From contig NZ_CP041040.1 of NCBI RefSeq assembly GCF_006385575.1, forward strand, positions 1,922,001 through 1,986,000: a stretch of 64,000 nucleotides of DNA. The letters run 5' to 3'. Positions 25,290 to 32,708 of the stretch are shown one piece after another; the first letter of the stretch is position 1; the number at the start of each line of letters is the position of its first letter. The notes beneath the pieces are model-generated. The model saw only the letters and a list, made by a program, of their open reading frames with translations. It was not told the DNA's origin and did no database searches. This DNA comes from Microbacterium foliorum (GTDB taxonomy: Bacteria; Actinomycetota; Actinomycetes; Actinomycetales; Microbacteriaceae). A program made the translations under genes and the position numbers.

Positions 25290-27392
25290 TCAGGCGTCGA
25301 TCGATTCGCGCGACAGACGGTCGGACGAATCGATGATGAACTCGCGCCGGGGTGCGACCTCGTTGCCCATCAGCAGCTCGAATACCCGACCGGCGGCCTC
25401 GGCATCCTCCATGCGCACGCGGCGCAGCAGGCGTCCGCCACGCTCCATCGTGGTGTTGGCGAGCTGCTCCGCATCCATCTCACCGAGCCCCTTGTAGCGC
25501 TGGATCGGCTCGTGCCACCGCTTGCCCGATTTGCGGAGCTTTGCGAGCAGCGCGTGCATCTCCTGCTCGCTGTAGGTGTAGATCGTCTCGTTGGGCTTGG
25601 AACCCGGGTTCATCACGATCACACGGTGCAGCGGAGGCACAGCGGCGAACACACGACCGTGCTCGATGAGCGGACGCATGTACCGGTAGAAGAGCGTGAG
25701 CAGCAGCGTGCGGATGTGCGCGCCGTCGACATCGGCGTCGCTCATCAGGATCACCTTGCCGTACCGTGCGGCGTCGATGTCGAAGCTGCGCCCGGAGCCC
25801 GCGCCGATCACCTGGATGATCGAGGCGCACTCGGCGTTGGAGAGCATGTCGCCCACCGACGCCTTCTGCACGTTGAGAATCTTGCCGCGGATCGGCAGCA
25901 GCGCCTGGAACTCGCTGTTGCGCGCGTTCTTGGCGGTGCCGAGAGCAGAGTCACCCTCGACGATGAACAGCTCGCTGCGATCGACCTCGTTGGTGCGGCA
26001 GTCGACGAGCTTGGTCGGCAGTGTCGACGACTCGAGGGCGTTCTTGCGCCGCTGGGTCTCTTTGTGGGCTCGAGCGGATACTCGAGCCTTCATCTCGGCG
26101 ACGACCTTGTCGAGCAGCTGCGTCGCCTGGCTCTTGTCGTCGCGCTTGGTCGAGCTGAACCGGGCAGCGAGATCCTTGCGCAGCACCTGCGCGACGATCT
26201 GACGCACGGCCGGTGTGCCGAGGATCTCCTTCGTCTGGCCCTCGAACTGCGGTTCGGGAACATTCACGGTGAGCACCGCGGTGAGTCCGGCGAGGACGTC
26301 GTCCTTCTCGAGCTTGTCGTTGCTGCCGACCTTCAGCCGGCGGGCGTTCTGATCGACCTGAGCTCTGAGCACCTTGAGCAGCTCCTGCTCGAAGCCCTGG
26401 TTGTGCGTGCCGCCCTTGGGCGTGGCGATGATGTTCACGAACGAACGGGTCGTCGTGTCGTAGCCGGTGCCCCACCGCATCGCGATGTCGACAGCGCAGA
26501 CCCGCTCGACCTCGGTCGCGATCATGTGACCGTCGGCCTGCAGAACCGGGACGGTCTCCTTGAAGGTTCCTTCGCCCTGGATGCGCCAGGTGTCGGTGAC
26601 GGGTGCATCGTTCGCGAGGTACTCGACGAACTCCGAGATTCCTCCGTCGTAGCGGTAGGAGGTCTCGGTGGGCTGCCCCTCGACCTCCGAGACGTTGGCC
26701 GCGCGCTCATCGCGGATCACGAGCTCCAGCCCGGGCACGAGGAAGGCCGTCTGACGCGCACGGGTCACCAGGTCGTTGAGCTGGAACGCGGCGTCCTTGG
26801 TGAAGATCTGGTGGTCCGCCCAGTAGCGGATGCGGGTGCCGCTCGTGCCTCGGGGTGCCTTGCCGACCACCCGCAGCTCGCTCTTGTCCTGGAACGGCGT
26901 GAACGGGGCGTCCGGCCGCTTCTCCCCCTTGTCGGCGAAGAGTCCTGGCTCGCCGCGGTGGAACGACATGGCGTAGGTCTTGCCGCCTCGGTCGACCTCG
27001 ACGTCGAGTCGTTCAGAGAGGGCGTTGACCACAGACGCGCCGACACCGTGCAGACCGCCGGATGCCGCGTACGACCCACCGCCGAACTTGCCGCCGGCAT
27101 GCAGCTTGGTGAAGACGACCTCGACGCCGGTGAGGCCGGTGCGGGGCTCGACGTCGACGGGGATGCCTCGGCCACGGTCGTGCACCTCGACGCTGCCGTC
27201 CTCGTGCAGGATGATGTCGATCTTCGAACCGTTGCCCGCGACGGCCTCGTCGACGGCGTTGTCGATGATCTCCCAGAGGCAGTGCATCAGGCCCGGCGAT
27301 CCGTTCGAACCGATGTACATACCGGGACGCTTGCGGACGGCCTCGAGCCCTTCGAGCACCTGGAGATGATGGGCGGAATACTCGGCGGTCAC
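25290..27392 (-). CDS. parE: DNA topoisomerase IV subunit B (ParE-type)
   Basis: The 700-aa ATPase subunit pairs with ParC. The GHKL ATPase domain is evident (EIIDNAVDEAVAG with the catalytic Glu, VEVHDRGRGIPVD, GGKFGGGSYAASGGLHGVGASVVNALSE). The TOPRIM domain carries EGDSALGTAKNARN and MSDADVDGAHIRTLLLT metal-binding acidic residues, and the C-terminal QRYKGLGEMDAEQL motif is present. The GTG at 27392 has CGGAG 5 nt upstream, consistent with a ParE of about 700 aa; the longer frame is rejected. It ends 3 bp from the convergent GT4 gene. Confidence 0.94.
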   Translation of the reverse strand: MTAEYSAHHLQVLEGLEAVRKRPGMYIGSNGSPGLMHCLWEIIDNAVDEAVAGNGSKIDIILHEDGSVEVHDRGRGIPVDVEPRTGLTGVEVVFTKLHAGGKFGGGSYAASGGLHGVGASVVNALSERLDVEVDRGGKTYAMSFHRGEPGLFADKGEKRPDAPFTPFQDKSELRVVGKAPRGTSGTRIRYWADHQIFTKDAAFQLNDLVTRARQTAFLVPGLELVIRDERAANVSEVEGQPTETSYRYDGGISEFVEYLANDAPVTDTWRIQGEGTFKETVPVLQADGHMIATEVERVCAVDIAMRWGTGYDTTTRSFVNIIATPKGGTHNQGFEQELLKVLRAQVDQNARRLKVGSNDKLEKDDVLAGLTAVLTVNVPEPQFEGQTKEILGTPAVRQIVAQVLRKDLAARFSSTKRDDKSQATQLLDKVVAEMKARVSARAHKETQRRKNALESSTLPTKLVDCRTNEVDRSELFIVEGDSALGTAKNARNSEFQALLPIRGKILNVQKASVGDMLSNAECASIIQVIGAGSGRSFDIDAARYGKVILMSDADVDGAHIRTLLLTLFYRYMRPLIEHGRVFAAVPPLHRVIVMNPGSKPNETIYTYSEQEMHALLAKLRKSGKRWHEPIQRYKGLGEMDAEQLANTTMERGGRLLRRVRMEDAEAAGRVFELLMGNEVAPRREFIIDSSDRLSRESIDA

Positions 27393-27571
27393 AATCTCCG
27401 AGTCTATTCGCGATGCCCTTGATCGAGCCGCAGACACTCCCCGCGAACGCCCAGGACGGGTGCTGCGCGTACGCGCTGAGCGAAACACGCCGCAAACCGG
27501 GCATGCGTACAGCGTCAGCGTGGTTGTATTGAACACGCCCAACCAGCGAACCCGACACTCAAGGAGGCACC

Positions 27572-27787
27572 ATGATGAACGCAACGACCGAACGTGAGAC
27601 CTCCGCCGTCGAGTTCCGCCTGACCGCCATGGATCGCTGTGATTCCTGTGGCGCTCAGGCCTACATCGCCGCCGAGGTCAACGGCTCCGAACTCCTCTTC
27701 TGCGCACACCACGGGCGCAAGTACGAAGAGAAGCTCCGCAGCATCGCAACGAGCTGGCACGACGAGACCGCTCGCCTGATCGACTGA
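27572..27787 (+). CDS. DUF7455 family small cysteine-containing protein
   Basis: The 71-aa protein has MDRCDSCGAQAY, then LLFCAHHGRKYEEKL. A CxxC plus a CxxH pair could form a small zinc-binding ribbon. The family is common in actinobacteria, usually near the principal sigma factor and ParE, and has no known function. AAGGAGG lies 5 nt before the first ATG at 27572; a second ATG follows directly. The 179-bp gap to the divergent parE should carry both promoters, but I see no clear consensus. Confidence 0.9.
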   Translation: MMNATTERETSAVEFRLTAMDRCDSCGAQAYIAAEVNGSELLFCAHHGRKYEEKLRSIATSWHDETARLID

Positions 27788-27841: not shown

Positions 27842-28882
27842 TTAAGGCGTGCTCACCCGTCGGACGCGAGCGGTGAGCCGGGTCAGGATCTCCTCGCCGA
27901 CGGTGTCGATGCGCTCGGCGAGGCTCGTCGTGCTCGACTCGCCGTGCTCGCCTGCGCCGAAGATCCAGACCGAGTCACCGAGCTGCATGCCGGGCCACCC
28001 CTCGACCACCGAAGTCGTCGCGTCGATGCGTAGAAGTTCGCGCGCCCCCGCGGGCGTGCCGACTCGGGCCCCTGCCAGCGTCGACGGAATGCCGTCGAAT
28101 GCGCCGATGCCCACCACGGCGTTCCCGTCGACGATGTCGACGACCGTCGCGGTGAGCTCCGCCACCGGTGTCACGCCCACGAGATCAGGGCCATCAGCCG
28201 AGCGGACGCCGTAGCAGAACGCTCCGATCCGTGACACCGAGCCGCGAAGCTCAGGGCGCCACCAGGACGCGGCGGATGCAGTCAGGTGCAGTGCCTCGGG
28301 AGTCGTGCCCGACTGCTCCGCCACGCGCACGGCATCGAGGAACAGGTTCTGAGCCTCGTCGTCCTCACCATCGCTCGCCTCGGCGAGATGGCTCCAGATG
28401 CCCACGAGCTGCAGATGCCCTGCGGCCTCACCTTCGCGCACGTCGTCGATGGTGCGGTCCCACTCATCCGGAAGCAGACCGTTGCGATGCAGCCCGGTGT
28501 CGATCTTCAGGTGGATCCGCGCCCGCACTCCCAATCGCTCCGCCACGGCCGTGATGCGCGCCAGGTACTCCGCCGAGCCGACTCCCAGGTCGATGCGTGC
28601 GCGCAGCGCCTCGTCGACCTCGTCATCGGTCGAGGTGGCCCAGGCGAAGATCCGCCCGGTGTCCCTCAGCACGCGCCTGGTCTCGACCCCGCTACGGACG
28701 TCGTACGCTCCGTACCACTCGACGCCCATTCCCTTCGCGGCCTCCACGGCCCAGCGCAGACCGTGGCCGTAGGCGTCGTCCTTGAGCACGATCATCAGCT
28801 CCGACGGAGCGATGCGATCGCGCACTGCGCGGATGTTCGATCGGAAACGGTCTGTGTCGACGCGCAGCTCCGGACGGCTCAT
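27842..28882 (-). CDS. alanine-racemase-like protein with PLP lysine but lacking the catalytic Tyr
   Basis: The 346-aa protein has the full PLP barrel of alanine racemase: LRVDTDRFRSNIRAV, the PLP-binding Lys34 in IVLKDDAYGHG, IHLKIDTGLHRNGL, HLTASAASWW and SRIGAFCYGV. A C-terminal beta domain follows (VAELTATVVDIVDG to LTARVRRV), but the segment that normally reads SYGxTY is GIGAFDG. The catalytic Tyr is therefore missing, and so is the CMD motif. The neighbouring protein encoded just upstream has exactly those missing pieces. Because the alanine racemase active site is built from Lys of one chain and Tyr of the other, this may be one half of an obligate heterodimer. The start ATG overlaps the partner's stop as ATGA. 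Confidence 0.8.
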   Translation of the reverse strand: MSRPELRVDTDRFRSNIRAVRDRIAPSELMIVLKDDAYGHGLRWAVEAAKGMGVEWYGAYDVRSGVETRRVLRDTGRIFAWATSTDDEVDEALRARIDLGVGSAEYLARITAVAERLGVRARIHLKIDTGLHRNGLLPDEWDRTIDDVREGEAAGHLQLVGIWSHLAEASDGEDDEAQNLFLDAVRVAEQSGTTPEALHLTASAASWWRPELRGSVSRIGAFCYGVRSADGPDLVGVTPVAELTATVVDIVDGNAVVGIGAFDGIPSTLAGARVGTPAGARELLRIDATTSVVEGWPGMQLGDSVWIFGAGEHGESSTTSLAERIDTVGEEILTRLTARVRRVSTP

Positions 28883-29586
28883 GCCTCCCACCCCCGCTCC
28901 GCATGGAAGCCCGCGACGGTGACGAGTTCGGCGATCGTGAGCCCTGTCACCGCCTCCCACCTGGCGAGGCCGGGAGCGGCAGGTCCGTGTCCTCCGAAGT
29001 ACGTGGCGTCGGCTCCGGGGGCGACTCCGGCTGACCCCTGCAGATCGATCACGCAGACGTCCATCGCGACACGCCCGATGATCGGACGCTGCACTCCCTC
29101 GATCTCGAGATGGGCGGCATTGCCCAGAGCGCGAACGATCCCCTGCGCGTATCCGCCGGTCACCAGTGCGGCGGTCGTATCGCGCGTAGCTCGATGCGTA
29201 TAGCCGTACGAGACGGCGTCTCCGGCTGCGAGCGGCTTGGTCGAGAGCACCCTGCCCACCAGACGCATCACCGGCCTCGTCCGCAGCGTTCCGTCAGAGT
29301 CAGGCAGTCCGTAGAGCAGGGACGGATCGATGTCGGCAGCGCCGTCCGTCACCGCGTCGATCCCCTCCAACGCCAGCGCCTCCGCCTCTGCCGTGCAGTC
29401 CACCCGCACGGCAGCCGCGCCGGCCGCGACGACGGCGTGCGCGACAGCGAACAGGCCGTGGCCCCAGGCATCCCGGCGAAGGTCGGCCACGCTGCCCCCG
29501 GCATCGACCGCTGCAGCCGATGCGGCGGCCAGCGCCGACCGCGAGATCATCGCGCGCGGACGGGAGCTCGATGTCTTCTCACACAC
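28879..29586 (-). CDS. alanine racemase C-terminal-domain protein with a reduced barrel
   Basis: The 235-aa protein keeps the beta domain of alanine racemase: PVMRLVGRVLSTKPLAAGDAVSYGYTHRA with the catalytic Tyr127, ALVTGGYAQGIVRAL, and PIIGRVAMDVCVIDL with the conserved Met-Asp. Its N-terminal barrel is cut to about 100 residues. DAWGHGL aligns with the PLP-site KADAYGHG but has no Lys, and then it jumps to the end of the barrel (LLYGLPDSDG). Alone it cannot bind PLP in the usual way. It is translated first and its stop overlaps the partner's start. The GTG at 29586 has TAGGCT 6 nt upstream and no ribosome site (leaderless). Product if paired: D-alanine for peptidoglycan. Confidence 0.8.
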   Translation of the reverse strand: MCEKTSSSRPRAMISRSALAAASAAAVDAGGSVADLRRDAWGHGLFAVAHAVVAAGAAAVRVDCTAEAEALALEGIDAVTDGAADIDPSLLYGLPDSDGTLRTRPVMRLVGRVLSTKPLAAGDAVSYGYTHRATRDTTAALVTGGYAQGIVRALGNAAHLEIEGVQRPIIGRVAMDVCVIDLQGSAGVAPGADATYFGGHGPAAPGLARWEAVTGLTIAELVTVAGFHAERGWEA

Positions 29587-29665: not shown

Positions 29666-30682
29666 ATGTCACGCTTTTCCCTCGCGCCCCGCGTCCGCTA
29701 TCTGCTGGCGCGTGCCCGCCGCATCGACGTCGCCTCGGTCATCGAGAGGGCCAAAGAGGCGTCGTCCCAGCATGGCAAGGCCGTGCCGCTCGTGGTCGTC
29801 GACATGCTGTGGTCTGCCGGCCGTCACAACGTCGGGTTCCAGGACTACATCGACTACGACTTCGCGATCCTCAACAGGGCGGAGCGCGACACCTTCATGA
29901 CCCACCCGGTGTCGAACGAGATCTCCCAGAAGTACGACCACCCGGACTACCGTCACCTCTTCCATGACAAAGCGGAGTTCAACGCCGTCTTCGACGCCTT
30001 CCTCAAGCGCGAGTGGATGCTCATCACCGACGGCAACGCAGACGAGCTGCGCGACTTCACCGAGCGCCAGGGCACGATCGTCGTCAAGGAGACCCACGGC
30101 CAGGCCGGCACCGGTGTGCACCGCTACCACGCCGCCGACGTCACCGATTGGGACGCGTTCCACGCCGAGCTCCTCTCGAAGAAGCAGGTGCTCGTCGAAG
30201 AGGTCATCCGCCAGCACGCCGACCTCGCAGCCGTCTGCCCCGGCACCGTCAACACCACGCGCATCACCGCCTTCTTCGACGGCGAGAAGACGCACATCCT
30301 CGCGATGGCGCAGAAGTTCGGGCGCGGTGCGGTGAGCGACCAGATGAGCTTCGGCGGCTTCTACACGATGCTCGACGAGAACGGTCACTCTGTCGGCTCC
30401 GGGTACGACTCGCACAGCCACGTGCACGTCACGCACCCGGACTCCGGCTTCCCGATCGCCGATTTCCAGCTGCCGATGATGGATGAGGTCCGCGAGTTCG
30501 TGGATCAGGTCGCTCGCGTCGTGCCGCAGATCCAGTACGTCGGCTGGGATGTCGTCGTCACCCCCGACGGTCCCGTTCTGGTCGAGGGCAACTGGGGTGC
30601 GGGCGTGTACGAGAACAAGCCGAGCGTCACCGGGATCCGCACCGGACACAAGCCGCGCTACCAGGCCGCGATCGGTTTCTGA
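29666..30682 (+). CDS. sugar-transfer-associated ATP-grasp family protein
   Basis: The 338-aa protein fits the ATP-grasp subfamily found with polysaccharide and teichoic-acid-type genes (ATPgrasp_ST). Visible segments are VKETHGQAGTGVHRY (ATP-binding loop, about residues 138-152), VLVEEVIRQH (about 175), TVNTTRITAFF, and YVGWDVVVTPDGPVLVEGNWGAGVY with the metal-binding Glu/Asn near the C-terminus. Such enzymes join a carboxylate to an amine or hydroxyl through an acyl phosphate. TTGGAGATCC lies just before the ATG at 29666. It is divergent from the alanine racemase pair, a context compatible with cell-envelope work. Its substrate is not known. Confidence 0.8.
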   Translation: MSRFSLAPRVRYLLARARRIDVASVIERAKEASSQHGKAVPLVVVDMLWSAGRHNVGFQDYIDYDFAILNRAERDTFMTHPVSNEISQKYDHPDYRHLFHDKAEFNAVFDAFLKREWMLITDGNADELRDFTERQGTIVVKETHGQAGTGVHRYHAADVTDWDAFHAELLSKKQVLVEEVIRQHADLAAVCPGTVNTTRITAFFDGEKTHILAMAQKFGRGAVSDQMSFGGFYTMLDENGHSVGSGYDSHSHVHVTHPDSGFPIADFQLPMMDEVREFVDQVARVVPQIQYVGWDVVVTPDGPVLVEGNWGAGVYENKPSVTGIRTGHKPRYQAAIGF

Positions 30683-30783: not shown

Positions 30784-31475
30784 TCAGACCTCGCGGACGA
30801 TACCCATCGGGGTCGACTGCGTCGCCTGTCCGAGCGGGTTGTCGCCGAGGATCTCGACGAGCCGACGCTCGCCCGCCTTGTCGAGCGTCGAACCGAGGAT
30901 GTTGCCGCCGATGTCGTTGATGTCGACGACGGCCACTTCGAGGTTTCCGCCGAGCATCTTCTTCAGGCGCTCCGCGACGCCGCGGGGGTCCTTCGGACCG
31001 AGCACGACCGCCTGGTTGTACGGCGGGATCGTGTTCTTGGTCGGACCGTCGATCGCACGCGCCTTGTCGCCGGCGATGCGATAGAAGTCGCCGCGACGGC
31101 CGAAGGCCTTGGTGATGACCGAGACGCCGGCGGCGAACAGGATCCGCAGAGTGCCGCACTCGCGCAGTGCCATCTCCATGGTCTCGGGCATTCCGAGACC
31201 GATGCCGTAGGAGGTGCGGACGACGTATCGCGAGAGGAAGCGCGCCAGAGGGCGCGGCGAGATCTCATCGAGCCGATAGGACCGGCCCTGCGTGATCGCG
31301 ACGATCTTCTCGGTCACGAACAGCAGGTCTCCCGGCTGCACCGCATCCTTCGCGTACTGCATGACGACCGAGTCGAGATCATCGTTCGGCATGACCACGC
31401 GCGTCCGCAGCGGAATGCGCGCGTAGCTCTTGCCGTCGACGCTCGCCTCGAGCGCTTTGCCCTCGTTCGCCTGCA

Positions 31476-31476
<1 letters not shown>
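30784..31476 (-). CDS. coenzyme F420-0:glutamate ligase-like protein (CofE/FbiB domain)
   Basis: The 230-aa protein has the CofE-type F420 ligase fold: YARIPLRTRVVMPNDDL, GDLLFVTEKIVAITQGRSY (about residues 50-68), and VAVVDINDIGGNILGST with metal-binding Asp residues (about 183-199). In F420-producing bacteria this domain adds glutamate to F420-0 by GTP-dependent ligation. Here it stands alone, with no other F420 genes in the window, and it follows rpoD with a 1-nt TGATG overlap. It may act on another substrate. A GTG three bases upstream is an alternative start. Confidence 0.75.

Positions 31477-32708
<1,232 letters not shown>

Follow-up and report, generated by a model that had tools for sequence, protein, structure and literature searches.

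Can two overlapping genes, each of which looks like a broken alanine racemase (Alr), together encode one enzyme? The question is raised by genes A and B of Microbacterium foliorum, which lie in a stretch of 64,000 nucleotides (contig NZ_CP041040.1, assembly GCF_006385575.1, positions 1,922,001 to 1,986,000), hereafter the window. Alanine racemase is a drug target and is known from textbooks as a homodimer; in each active site of the ordinary homodimer, the lysine from one chain works with the tyrosine from its partner. According to the comparisons described here, A and B very likely make up an obligate heterodimer with the alanine-racemase fold, and if such a heterodimer exists, it is with similar likelihood a racemase. 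The full proposal of a heterodimeric racemase, with its substrate left as a likely guess, is somewhat favoured. We infer both physical association and catalysis from comparative evidence.

Complementary halves of a racemase fold

The sequence-only reading of this locus had described two adjacent and overlapping half-racemase genes, and both open reading frames (ORFs) proved real, on the minus strand (Table 1). Gene B starts with GTG and has an alternative ATG 12 codons in. For gene A the ATG start was taken; a longer ORF from 28960 (GTG, 372 aa) exists but is unneeded.

In Pfam searches, gene A matches Ala_racemase_N over 8-227 with 148.7 bits, and its match to Ala_racemase_C is partial and weak, with only positions 35-126 covered at 30.2 bits (cut-off 25). 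Gene B matches the full Ala_racemase_C with 89.3 bits and shows a mere scrap of Ala_racemase_N (9.7 bits, cut-off 24.1). For TIGR00492, the NCBIfam alanine racemase family with a cut-off of 168 bits, both A (118.9) and B (77.9) fall below the limit, and the full-length Alr of the same genome reaches 290.6 bits.

Residues are given below in what we take to be Geobacillus numbering (Lys39, Tyr265 and so on). When aligned with the intact Alr of its own genome, gene A keeps the equivalents of Lys39 (the lysine that binds pyridoxal phosphate, PLP; Lys34 in A), Tyr43, Arg136, His166, Ser204, and Arg219; an alignment gap runs across the SYGY loop, and the catalytic tyrosine and the methionine are gone. 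Gene B keeps SYGYT (with Tyr127), Tyr146, and Met175-Asp176, Arg37 replaces Lys39, and the middle of the barrel is absent. Alignment and Pfam thus agree with the earlier description of A as a barrel with the PLP lysine and without the catalytic tyrosine and methionine, and of B as a chain with SYGYT and Met-Asp and without the PLP lysine and most of the barrel. A single-chain Alr has the PLP lysine and the catalytic tyrosine on one chain, which is true of neither A nor B. Taken as one unit, A and B have an N-domain barrel with the PLP residues and a C-domain with the tyrosine and the Met-Asp segment, all present.

In the proposed enzyme, the two acid/base catalysts would sit on different chains. 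The barrel, with the lysine that binds PLP, would come from A; the C-terminal domain would come from B and would extend its catalytic tyrosine and its Met-Asp into the active site of A, as each chain of the ordinary Alr homodimer does for its partner. The mirror-image site would be dead on both sides, leaving one active site per A-B dimer. Dimers of A with A or of B with B would have no complete site.

Conservation across the family

A family sample of 60 loci was picked from matches in searches of 150 genomes. It holds 41 B-A pairs, 2 pairs of a second kind (A'-B', discussed below), 13 full-length tandem alr loci, 3 single alr genes, and 1 A near a contig end. With the window included, residues were counted in 43 A and 42 B sequences. 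As for A, Lys39, Arg136, His166, Ser204, and Arg219 are present in 43/43 and Tyr43 in 42/43; Tyr265 occurs in none and Met312 in one, and Asp313 persists in 32. As for B, Met312, Tyr or Phe at 284, and Asp or Asn at 313 are found in 42/42. Tyr265 is also found in 42/42, a count that is not independent because B was partly sorted by having this residue. The PLP-lysine column of B contains Arg in 29/42, other residues or a gap in 12, and in the remaining locus (L071) a K in an unaligned stretch. The forms of B are graded from near full-length but lysine-less (L080, L091) down to trimmed, and this length series has the appearance of graded decay.

The ATGA overlap noted by the sequence-only reading is present in the window. 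With the start of A picked near the stop of B, a 4-base overlap exists in 33/42 family loci and an overlap of any length in 40/42. Among the matches listed for 248 genomes sampled across the order, those from other families have open frames of at least 353 aa and look full-length. Database names for relatives of B are "alanine racemase", "alanine racemase C-terminal domain-containing protein", and "hypothetical protein". A record titled Stenotrophomonas maltophilia (L150) and a protein labelled Streptomyces sp. (P0049) contain Microbacterium-type sequence and are probably contaminated or mislabelled assemblies.

Joint presence and joint loss in Microbacterium

A match of type B at E 1e-23 or better was found in 245 of the 295 Microbacterium genomes. 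Nineteen of the other 50 were examined: 18 have the same locus with neither gene in the stretch, and one has a divergent pair. Scanning with the neighbouring CofE-like protein yielded 80 named loci, of which, by stretch, 53 have both genes and 27 neither. In four of these 27 the stretch is truncated or rearranged, and both genes are present at another place in the genome. The final tally for the 80 loci or their genomes is 57 with both genes, 23 with neither, and none with one alone. Among the 23, eight were also checked genome-wide by a C-domain search and the other 15 (including M. arborescens) were judged by locus only. Seven of the eight have a single full-length C-domain match, and M. flavum has two, both of full-length type. 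The second match of M. flavum, considered as a B, was rejected when it proved to be a third full-length-type alr-like gene. At locus L281 of this species, a full-length-type alr-like protein has a GYD motif where Alr has SYG, and it is 38% identical to the Alr of the window genome.

Residues were also read in 57 Microbacterium pairs (the 53 named loci, three short loci, and the window), which were assigned by similarity to the window proteins. Lys39, Tyr43, Arg136, and His166 are present in A in 57/57, and Tyr265 in 0/57; Tyr265, Tyr284, Met312, and Asp313 are present in B in 57/57, and Lys39 in 0/57. The median ratio of nonsynonymous to synonymous substitution rates (dN/dS) is 0.21 for A (345 comparisons) and 0.20 for B (328 comparisons), indicating purifying selection on both.

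A tree of the neighbouring proteins took in 98 of 102 loci, some of which represent the same genome twice. Of its 40 pair-less rows, 39 fall within a single clade and the last falls outside it. The idea of many independent losses was dropped on this ground, and the pair was probably lost twice in Microbacterium.

A second split in genus g78

In the related genus g78, a C-domain search of all 8 genomes showed that 7/8 species have an A-B pair plus a split pair, A'-B', at the canonical alr locus, and that these seven have no full-length C-domain gene. The N-domain search covered two of the seven, and these two genomes have no full-length Alr by either domain search. A' keeps Lys39 and Tyr354, and its Tyr265 is gone. 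In B', Tyr265 and Met312-Asp313 are retained, Thr occupies the position of Lys39, and the barrel core is missing. The two genes overlap by ATGA in the two loci read at sequence level. In the eighth genome, G697, which is 96% complete in 260 contigs, the only C-domain matches are Alr1 and Alr2, intact and in tandem. Intact tandem alr (L260, L268, G697) and the doubly split state (L261-L279) thus coexist in one genus as a natural series for the origin of the split.

A strong D-Ala-D-Ala-ligase-type match (E 1.7e-64 or better) is present in all 8 g78 genomes; this family also matches all 14 control genomes, and weak matches to it are meaningless. In the two g78 genomes tested, no D-amino-acid transaminase was over the cut-off, and weaker class-IV aminotransferase matches are present. 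A'-B' is the only alanine-racemase candidate found in the seven split species of g78, since they have no full-length C-domain gene, the two genomes tested have no over-cut-off transaminase, and the ligase-type match is present. Unless they have another source of D-Ala, these seven species would need A'-B' as their alanine racemase. No other finding here speaks as strongly for the functioning of such split pairs.

Origin of the split

The barrel tree, in which 43 A and 13 full-length Alr2 sequences were included, puts both in one group with a support of 99 in the Shimodaira-Hasegawa-like approximate likelihood ratio test (SH-aLRT), and Alr2 falls in two places among A. Alr2 here denotes full-length tandem genes named by Asp or Glu at position 354, and the tree was built without that label. 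A and Alr2 appear by this tree to share a barrel ancestor, and the pair would be the product of a duplication after which the copies lost complementary parts.

In g78 a split of this kind seems to have occurred once more. In the trees, A' lies near Alr1, outside the group of A and Alr2, and B' lies within the Alr2 group (SH-aLRT 96 in one C-domain tree, 87-89 in another). Because A' and B' are placed in this way, the simplest history would be complementary loss in a tandem duplicate.

Gene neighbourhood

Most of the family loci displayed have a SigA-like gene, then MurT-GatD or CofE-like and ATP-grasp genes, then the pair, and then a ParE-like gene. Between the SigA-like gene and the pair, MurT-GatD stands in some relatives (L066, 8131-10202) and CofE-like plus ATP-grasp genes in others, including the window. 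This exchange may mark different uses of the D-Glu carboxyl in group-B walls.

The ATP-grasp gene differs with the presence of the pair. Pair-bearing rows with an ATP-grasp match are 67-100% identical to the window protein in 47/53 and 46-49% in the other 6. Pair-less loci have other ATP-grasp versions, with a best identity of 37-60% in 39 rows, and one locus has none. Many of the pair-less Microbacterium loci (L131, L135, L136, L140-L142, L144, L147, and others) have two tandem ATPgrasp_ST genes 37-40% identical to that of the window; others have a single copy, 54-60% identical, in the usual divergent orientation.

Table 1. Features of the A-B locus, in window coordinates
Feature	Position	Strand	Remark
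Gene B, Tyr-bearing subunit	28879..29586	-	235 aa; Alr C-terminal domain and vestigial barrel piece; first of pair
Gene A, PLP-lysine subunit	27842..28882	-	346 aa; complete Alr barrel and degenerate C-terminal domain; second of pair
ATGA overlap	28879..28882	-	B stop TGA, A start ATG
A Lys34 codon	28781..28783	-	PLP lysine, Lys39 equivalent
A Glu330 codon	27893..27895	-	Position of Tyr354
B Tyr127 codon	29206..29208	-	Catalytic Tyr265 equivalent
B Met175-Asp176 codons	29059..29064	-	Met312-Asp313 equivalents
B Arg37 codon	29476..29478	-	At PLP-lysine position, within LRRDAWGHG
ATPgrasp_ST protein	29666..30682	+	Divergent neighbour, start uncertain; candidate peptidoglycan-bridge ligase (putative role)
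F420_ligase (CofE-like) protein	30784..31479	-	Neighbour; MurT-GatD at same place in other relatives (putative role)
DUF7455 gene	27572..27787	+	Flanking; locus boundary marker
ParE-like topoisomerase subunit gene	25290..27584	-	Flanking; boundary marker (name presumed)
SigA-like sigma-factor gene	31476..32708	-	Flanking; boundary marker (name presumed)

Substrate and alternative explanations

Position 354 is acidic in all family A sequences (Glu 17 and Asp 26, 43/43), and in Microbacterium it is Glu in 53/53 readable sequences of the 57. In A' of g78 it is Tyr in 7/7 species. The acidic residue would set the specificity of the pair. If the complex is a racemase, a basic amino acid is its fairly probable substrate: ornithine in those Microbacterium with D-ornithine, and 2,4-diaminobutyrate (Dab) or lysine in other genera. 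By racemising it, the pair would provide the D-diamino acid found in the bridge of group-B2 peptidoglycan. Walls of types B1 and B2 are defined by an L- and a D-diamino acid in the bridge, respectively. Members of the Microbacteriaceae are described as having group-B walls (PMC10978784), the wall diamino acid of Microbacterium is given as L-Lys, D-Orn, or Dab (PMC10757982), and the peptide D-Ala-D-Dab is given for the wall of Rhodoluna lacicola (PMC4156110). Together, residue 354, the MurT-GatD or CofE-like and ATP-grasp neighbours, and the wall chemistry of the family make a racemase for a wall D-diamino acid plausible. For the window pair, the choice of ornithine over alanine is a reasoned guess. 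In a literature search of open PMC papers, no gene for the D-ornithine or its equivalents in group-B peptidoglycan was found.

The pair is absent from M. hominis and M. flavum, whose wall reportedly contains L-Lys. For other species, D-Orn and Lys assignments were taken from PMC10757982 and PMC10978784, and some of the compared genomes are not those of type strains. Seven D-Orn species have the pair: M. testaceum, M. hydrothermale, M. proteolyticum, and M. galbinum, as well as M. oxydans, M. algeriense, and M. maritypicum, which are covered by a statement on the whole cluster V. One D-Orn species, M. radiodurans, does not have it. Two Lys species, M. arborescens and M. saccharophilum, have no pair, and one, M. 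enclense, has it. M. enclense NIO-1002 was a pair-less candidate by its CofE locus, which was rejected when a whole-genome search located an intact pair elsewhere (L258); a pair-less state would have agreed with the L-Lys reported for this species, and the species no longer counts as a supporting case.

Several observations weigh against a two-chain racemase for wall diamino acids. In a mirror-tree comparison of 47 loci, corrected for the species tree, the partial r is 0.35 for A-B and 0.48 for ATPgrasp-B, followed by ATPgrasp-CofE (0.33), CofE-B (0.29), CofE-A (0.21), and ATPgrasp-A (0.20). The distance correlation of A with B is no better than that of B with a neighbouring gene and is non-discriminating. 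The C-domain trees, which are based on few columns, scatter the B rows over two or three positions; together with the two positions of Alr2 among A, this fits more than one source of B and different numbers and orders of splits at the ParE locus. Tyr354 of Alr is presumably a substrate-side position, and what it means for specificity is likewise our assumption. In the 0.93-Mb (megabase) genome G015, the only matches to both Alr domains are those of a B-A pair with Asp at 354 (L120), and a D-Ala-ligase-type gene is present alongside this acidic-354 pair, which suggests alanine activity of the pair or an outside supply of D-Ala. M. radiodurans is reported to have D-Orn, and the pair is absent at its locus (L156); M. 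enclense NIO-1002 is reported to have L-Lys and has an intact pair. In PMC10757982, each of these two is the odd species of its cluster. Mistaken wall reports are possible, and both are still counted as contradictions. Finally, the fit with wall type is weak evidence, close to one event, because there are only two losses on the tree.

A complex could also form whose product is not a wall D-diamino acid, because it acts on another substrate (serine, homoserine, a free D-amino acid signal) or catalyses another PLP reaction. The two wall-type contradictions agree with this, as do the few independent losses and the fact that the substrate is read from one residue plus the gene neighbours. However, the MurT-GatD or CofE-like/ATP-grasp neighbourhood points to the cell wall, and so does the different type of ATP-grasp in pair-less loci. 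This alternative is unlikely, though the best surviving of those considered.

Somewhat less likely again is a role of the window pair as a two-chain alanine racemase, redundant with a full-length alr. The closest families are alanine racemases, the split pair of g78 is the only candidate there for this activity, and G015 has only an A-B type pair. On the other side stand the scores for TIGR00492, which the genome's own full-length alr passes and A and B do not, the acidic position 354 of family A as opposed to the Tyr of alanine-type A', and the 23 of 80 Microbacterium loci without the pair. In the 3.6-Mb window genome, the N-domain match of the full-length alr (L001) lies at 885852-886505 on the plus strand, and that of a second intact alr-like gene (L002) at 278374-279027 on the plus strand; the other N-domain matches are the A-B pair, a 243-aa open frame, and one sub-cut-off match. 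The L002 gene lies next to two ORFs, named by eye as VanY-like (dipeptidase-type) and D-Ala-ligase-like, an arrangement that resembles a glycopeptide-resistance-type cluster.

The sequence-only reading had taken the pair as the alanine racemase, a view that L001, L002, and the Glu at the Tyr354 position do not support; that role probably does not fall to the window pair. It had also regarded a full-length alr elsewhere, together with loss of the pair without phenotype, as telling against its proposal. The first half of this, a full-length alr in the genome, is what was found, and it is relevant to what the pair acts on and not to whether the enzyme has two chains. The heterodimer itself is strongly supported by the complementary residues, the co-occurrence in 80 loci, the gene overlap, and the g78 split, while alanine as its substrate is unsupported.

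It is very unlikely that A and B share no active site and are separate pseudoenzymes or regulators of full-length Alr. Each is a degenerate relative of an enzyme that the window genome retains, as such proteins would be, but no full-length Alr was found to be regulated in the seven g78 species or in G015, the catalytic residues are kept in complement, and neither gene is ever single in the 80 named loci. Decaying pseudogenes, a sequencing frameshift (which the sequence-only reading had named as a danger to its proposal), or an assembly error can practically be dismissed, for although each protein alone looks broken, the conservation of the B-type gene across the genus and dN/dS of about 0.2 reject them, and no single frameshift joins A and B because each chain has its own copy of the C-domain.

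The widest form of the heterodimer proposal holds that at least two complementary decays to one-site heterodimers occurred in Microbacteriaceae, that A-B makes the group-B2 D-diamino acid, and that A'-B' is the sole alanine racemase of a lineage. This combined statement could equally well prove right or wrong.

Comparison with known systems

Among the papers listed in a literature search of open PMC papers, none was on a two-subunit alanine racemase by title and start of abstract; A-B very probably represents a type of two-part enzyme not found described in that search. If the proposal is true, it would provide a clear natural case of duplicate genes made mutually dependent by complementary loss, apparently twice, with the intact tandem genes still in the same genus as the split state. 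The pair is also a testable candidate for the enzyme that makes D-ornithine, or D-Dab or D-Lys, for group-B peptidoglycan.

The nearest known system is Alr/DadX, a homodimeric PLP racemase of fold type III (PF01168 and PF00842; TIGR00492), with which A-B shares two domains and the catalytic lysine and tyrosine. In solved structures of Alr/DadX the active site is shared between two chains, as is proposed for A-B. Unlike Alr/DadX, the chains of A-B come from two genes, each without the catalytic half of the other, both are below the TIGR00492 cut-off, and one live site per dimer is predicted instead of two. The tandem Alr2 of sister genera (L106-L116, L121, L122) resembles A in its barrel grouping and in Asp or Glu at 354. 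In contrast to the pair, Alr2 keeps Lys39 and Tyr265 on one chain in 13/13, is probably a homodimer, and adjoins alr at what we take to be the glmS-acpS-tsaB locus. The lysine or broad-specificity racemases (PDB 4dza, 4dyj) use the Alr fold on basic amino acids and are matches of both halves; however, they are single-chain and in sequence no nearer to A or B than ordinary Alr is. In the AdoMetDC-prozyme of trypanosomes, the active site is said to lie on one chain, whereas the A-B proposal divides the site between chains. As described in PMC5201418, that system is likewise a duplicated enzyme in which one paralogue has no catalytic residues and which works as a heteromer.

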